Part shown: positions 9,666 to 13,486 of the stretch, one piece after another
Layout: each line of letters begins with the position of its first letter
Position numbering within the stretch: position 1 is the first letter of the stretch
Source: Thermodiscus sp.
GTDB taxonomy: Archaea > Thermoproteota > Thermoprotei_A > Sulfolobales > Acidilobaceae
Direction: 5' to 3'
Assembly (NCBI GenBank): GCA_015523485.1
Contig: WAKH01000014.1
Coordinates: 1 to 35,344 of the forward strand
DNA length: 35,344 nt
The notes under the pieces: generated by a model
What the model saw: the letters and a program-made list of their open reading frames with translations, nothing else
Told to the model about the DNA's origin: nothing
Database searches by the model: none
Made by a program: the position numbers and the translations under genes

Positions 9666-9761
9666 GCCGCCGTAGCTCAGCGGGCAGACCCCCTGCGCGG
9701 GGCCCAAAGCGCTGGCCTTGTAAGCCAGTGGTCGCGGGTTCGAATCCCGCCGGCGGCTCCA
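9666..9761 (+). tRNA. tRNA-Thr(UGU), CCA encoded, with a 20-nt non-canonical intron in the D-stem (9688-9707)
   Basis: GCCGCCG...CGGCGGC acceptor, CTGGC-CTTGTAA-GCCAG anticodon arm, GCGGG-TTCGAAT-CCCGC T-arm. Removing ACCCCCTGCGCGGGGCCCAA restores D-stem GCTC/GAGC. Confidence 0.92.
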
Positions 9762-13371: not shown

Positions 13372-13486
13372 TGGTGCCGCCGCCGGGATTTGAACCCGGG
13401 ACCTCCGGATCTCCCAGGTCCCCGCGACTTCGGCAGGGACTACGCCGTATGAGTCCGGCGCTCTGCCAAGGCTGAGCTACGGCGGC
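13372..13486 (-). tRNA. tRNA-Met(CAU) with a 37-nt canonical 37/38 intron (13411-13447), CCA encoded
   Basis: Reverse strand GCCGCCGTAGCTCAGCCTTGGCAGAGCGCCGGACTCATA[intron]ATCCGGAGGTCCCGGGTTCAAATCCCGGCGGCGGCACCA; BHB with CTCA/TGGG helix and bulges TA|C and AG|A. Confidence 0.92.

Follow-up and report, generated by a model that had tools for sequence, protein, structure and literature searches.

The closest described system to the locus reported here is the D-arm intron of Aeropyrum pernix tRNA-Thr(UGU). A review (PMC4307357) places this intron 22 bases from the 5' end, reports its splicing, with confirmation by unspliced and spliced cDNAs, and describes in vitro analysis of a synthetic unspliced tRNA-Thr(UGU-1) with A. 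pernix tRNA endonuclease (EndA). The same review describes D-arm introns in Sulfolobus tokodaii tRNA-Glu, for which recombinant EndA cuts at a BHB-like site; these share the D-arm location but sit in a different tRNA from the one studied here. More broadly, crenarchaeal non-canonical introns occur at 20/21, 22/23, 25/26, 29/30 and other positions, 22/23 being among those known, with BHB junctions and (alpha-beta)2 EndA in the host (PMC4090602). The (alpha-beta)2 and epsilon2 forms of EndA are associated with relaxed motifs (PMC6379350).

The window, that is the whole 35,344-nt stretch of DNA analysed, is contig 14 of an Acidilobaceae-type crenarchaeal MAG, in agreement with the crenarchaeal host implied by an earlier sequence-only reading. 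The host shares its genus with genome G048 (WAOR01000012, labelled Thermodiscus sp.); Thermodiscus is placed in Acidilobaceae in the NCBI taxonomy. Positions 9666–9761 hold a tRNA-Thr(UGU) gene, encoded CCA included, with a 20-nt interruption after nucleotide 22. Its layout is GCCGCCG TA GCTC AGCGGGCA G/ACCCCCTGCGCGGGGCCCAA/AGC G CTGGC CTTGTAA GCCAG TGGTC GCGGG TTCGAAT CCCGC CGGCGGC T CCA, where slashes mark the junctions. The Rfam tRNA model RF00005 matches 9666–9758 with 61.5 bits (E 3.7e-11), immediately followed by the CCA. As for archaeal BHB tRNA introns, removal of the insert leaves a standard tRNA, here a regular 76-nt tRNA-Thr(UGU) in which the D-stem GCTC/GAGC is restored. Mature position 22 corresponds to 9687, which places the insertion site at 22/23; the predicted spliced junction is GGGCAG/AGCGCTGG, while the unspliced form would keep GGGCAGACCCCC. 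The sequence-only reading had proposed this same 20-nt intron, and its coordinates and sequence match ours, with the Rfam match and the family comparison in agreement. Features are listed in the table below.

Table. Features of the interrupted tRNA-Thr(UGU) gene in the window, its predicted BHB element, and inserts at the same site in Jordarchaeia/Freyarchaeota MAGs
Feature	Position	Strand	Basis
5' exon of tRNA-Thr(UGU), mature 1–22	9666..9687	+	Rfam RF00005; identical 22 nt in uninterrupted ortholog G158/L145
20-nt non-canonical intron ACCCCCTGCGCGGGGCCCAA, 22/23, D-stem 3' strand	9688..9707	+	Family distribution; D-stem restored on removal
3' exon, mature 23–73, discriminator T at 9758	9708..9758	+	Rfam; comparison with L145 and L048
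Anticodon TGT (Thr UGU), loop CTTGTAA	9719..9721	+	Sequence
Encoded CCA tail	9759..9761	+	Sequence
BHB central helix, 5' strand GGGC (exon)	9682..9685	+	Covariation, 33 sequences, 130/132 cells paired
BHB central helix, 3' strand GCCC (intron)	9702..9705	+	Covariation, 33 sequences, 130/132 cells paired
5' bulge AG/A, predicted cut 9687/9688	9686..9688	+	BHB geometry (rule in PMC4307357); relatives' introns starting with G
3' bulge AA/A, predicted cut 9707/9708	9706..9708	+	Two intron-end bases variable in relatives
Intron inner stem-loop, CCC (9689–9691)/GGG (9699–9701), loop CCTGCGC	9689..9701	+	Sequence; register ambiguous in folding
Outer exon-exon helix GC/GC	9680..9681 with 9709–9710	+	33-sequence comparison
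Jordarchaeia/Freyarchaeota inserts	L072 7631–7682, L084 1242–1295, L104 5807–5859		

Comparison with Aeropyrum (genus g3; genomes G013 and G014, labelled Aeropyrum sp.), which falls, like the window genome, within family f1, places the two introns in the same isodecoder and at the same site, with shared intron sequence. The Aeropyrum intron, ACCCCTGCGCGGGGCCTAA, has the same BHB layout but is 19 nt long rather than 20, and its central pair 1 is A-U where the window has G-C; the mature tRNA bodies are identical at 73/76 positions. Because both the A. pernix intron and position 22/23 are already published, the window intron is an ortholog of a documented intron.

To survey the order, we searched 214 genomes with a pattern permitting 0–30 nt at 22/23. 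Thirty of the 48 f1 genomes match, and all 30 carry an insert. Among nine non-matching f1 genomes examined further, five (G022, G033, G034, G044 and G045) are interrupted as well, their D-loop being shorter or their insert 32 nt long, bringing the intron to 35/48 genomes; the gene was not recovered in the other 13. None of the 48 f1 genomes, ~99%-complete ones included, yielded an uninterrupted Thr(UGU) gene. The listed matches from other families are uninterrupted, except those of G003 in f2 (63% complete) and of G095, G096, G097 and G100 in f4, and the f4 inserts at 22/23 of tRNA-Thr(UGU) are unrelated in sequence to the f1 intron. The spliced body of the window gene and the uninterrupted tRNA-Thr(UGU) of G158 (family f8, same order) are identical at 73/76 positions. 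With respect to intron transposition within the host genome, no other tRNA locus shares a match longer than a 9-mer with the intron. One further match (L099, Flammeovirgaceae) was left out because it does not represent a tRNA.

Several variants were noted along the way. The same-genus genome G048 has two Thr(UGU) genes (L137 and L138, on contigs 1 and 12) with the same intron and with differing flanks and T-loops, reflecting either a strain mixture or a duplication. In some Acidilobaceae/Desulfurococcales MAGs (L118, L119, L081, L085, L092 and L098) the intron is expanded to 31–32 nt, in two unrelated kinds. Outside the family, Jordarchaeia/Freyarchaeota MAGs carry tRNA-Thr(UGU) genes with 22–24-nt inserts at 22/23, of unrelated sequence and with a weaker BHB (L072, L084 and L104), which are possibly independent introns. 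Four MAGs that carry the label Thaumarchaeota or ‘archaeon’ (L076, L077, L080 and L087) have a 15-nt insert of unrelated sequence at 22/23 of tRNA-Thr(UGU), together with an apparent interruption at 37/38 in L076, L077, L080 and probably L087.

The window intron has a full strict hBHBh' motif, with a 4-bp central helix and a 3-nt bulge on each side, whereas many crenarchaeal non-canonical introns have relaxed motifs. The GGGC/GCCC helix, 3-nt bulges and CCC/GGG stem that the sequence-only reading had described as a strict BHB are all present, although alternative registers exist for the inner stem (CCCCC vs GGGG). A BHB with a 4-bp central helix and an inner stem of at least 3 bp would arise here by chance in 0.18% of insert shuffles and 0.11% of random window 20-mers. 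We then assessed pairing across 33 distinct sequences carrying the insert, for which the four central pairs give 132 cells. The central helix is paired in 130/132 cells; shuffling the 3' strands (n=2000, kinship ignored) gives 112.7 on average and 122 at most, and slid registers pair at most 70 cells. More specifically, every Watson-Crick type occurs at central pair 1, which is C-G (15), G-C (5), A-U (5), U-A (3), U-G (2) or G-U (1) with 2 mismatches, and central pair 4 is C-G (15), U-G (15) or U-A (3). Central pairs 2 and 3 are near-constant, as expected because the D-loop GG is conserved. In the outer helix, the first pair is standard in 31/33 sequences and the second in 25/33. A23 is kept in all sequences collected, but is also imposed by the search pattern. 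Separately, a core CTGCGYGG (window 9693–9700) is found in 24/38 distinct inserts, nearly all of them from f1, and exceeds what BHB pairing demands.

Thermodynamic folding was also considered. For the full pre-tRNA, the BHB form reaches -40.9 kcal/mol vs -48.4 kcal/mol for the MFE, another structure thus being preferred by programs that leave out tertiary contacts, modification and enzyme binding. In the isolated 33-nt element the central, outer and inner stems form, yet the energy is no better than that of its own shuffles. Support for the predicted BHB is comparative, and folding energy alone adds none. A hairpin GCAG(9684–9687)/CTGC(9693–9696) taken from the MFE was rejected as a conserved structure: in L059 and L060 its strands are just one base (A) apart.

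Both the identity of the gene and its boundaries were weighed against other readings. Over the same span ARAGORN outputs a tRNA-Pro(GGG), bearing out the earlier expectation that such genes are easily missed by standard finders, and taken at face value this output makes the gene an intron-less tRNA-Pro(GGG). Such a reading leaves GGG without regular D and anticodon arms and conflicts with the Rfam match and the spliced-body comparison. Furthermore, a genuine tRNA-Pro(GGG), interrupted by a canonical intron, exists in the host genome (L034), and the window gene, judged by sequence as well as by position, clusters with Thr(UGU) genes across the whole family. The tRNA-Pro(GGG) identity is refuted by these comparative data and merits next to no credence; ARAGORN's misreading is due to the 20-nt insert. 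It is likewise exceedingly improbable that the gene is a degenerate tRNA pseudogene that acquired its insert by chance, with the true Thr(UGU) gene lying in sequence absent from the assembly. The assembly is indeed 88% complete, and a second Thr(UGU) gene was once predicted in A. pernix, but that gene is described in PMC4307357 as never detected as RNA. Here the exons are intact, the insert is conserved with compensatory changes over most f1 genera, and the f1 genomes yielded no uninterrupted copy, as noted above. Another intact Thr(UGU) gene, which the sequence-only reading had named as grounds for abandoning the intron, was not found in the 88%-complete host genome (1.30 Mb), where the Rfam searches used for the tRNA inventory give 29 tRNA genes, one of them Thr(UGU). 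Another tRNA gene in the window, at 13375–13486 on the minus strand, has anticodon CAT, is interrupted at the canonical 37/38 site by a 37-nt intron, and was missed by the ARAGORN default run.

Accepting a spliced tRNA-Thr(UGU), the boundaries may be questioned by one nucleotide (AGA/CCC...AAA/GC). Because there is an A at both ends, either reading gives an identical mature tRNA in the window. However, in L056, L141, L142 and L144 the intron begins with G and the D-stem GAGC is kept only if the cut falls after G22; these four sequences therefore place the cut after position 22, not 23. Archaeal EndA, moreover, cleaves after the second bulge base (PMC4307357), and a shifted boundary is very unlikely. 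Finally, given the inserts of unrelated sequence at that site in f4, in the Jordarchaeia/Freyarchaeota MAGs and in those labelled Thaumarchaeota or ‘archaeon’, position 22/23 of tRNA-Thr(UGU) might be a recurrent insertion hot spot, with the Acidilobaceae intron additionally having a function of its own linked to the CTGCGYGG core; we hold this as a tentative and rather doubtful proposal.

The machinery for splicing a non-canonical tRNA-Thr(UGU) intron is encoded in the host genome. The search for alpha and beta endA subunits suggested by the sequence-only reading found both: EndA alpha matches A. pernix chain 3p1z_B (E 2.7e-52) and EndA beta its partner chain 3p1z_A (E 2.2e-31). In the alignment, EndA alpha conserves A. 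pernix Y125, H133 and K164 (catalytic Tyr/His/Lys) and K44 of the Crenarchaea-specific loop, residue numbers being counted from the alignment and the triad positions other than H133 being inferred from the family. The role of K44 in this loop has been described (PMC6379350). An RtcB ligase gene is present as well. The earlier statement that a heteromeric endonuclease is required was too strong, as a strict hBHBh' need not depend on one; it is relaxed motifs that are tied to (alpha-beta)2 and epsilon2 (PMC6379350).

Taken together, the window almost certainly holds the single found tRNA-Thr(UGU) gene of this genome, with a short non-canonical intron at 22/23 that is predicted to be removed by EndA cleavage and RtcB joining to give a normal tRNA-Thr. 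Once transcribed in the window organism, the 3' side of the D-loop and the 3' end of the intron would form the 4-bp central helix of the BHB, the genome-encoded (alpha-beta)2 EndA would cleave each 3-nt bulge following its second base, and RtcB would join the exons, yielding the D-stem GCUC/GAGC.

The window intron is genuine, and is a new example of a phenomenon already described; it leaves the understanding of tRNA splicing unchanged. The window gene nevertheless provides a clean, family-wide and covariation-supported case of a non-canonical tRNA intron. It also shows a common tRNA finder labelling a tRNA with such an intron as a different tRNA, and tRNA miscounts are therefore possible in the automatic annotation of such genomes. 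For the family, the experimentally known intron of Aeropyrum is now extended over its relatives, so that its gain can be dated.
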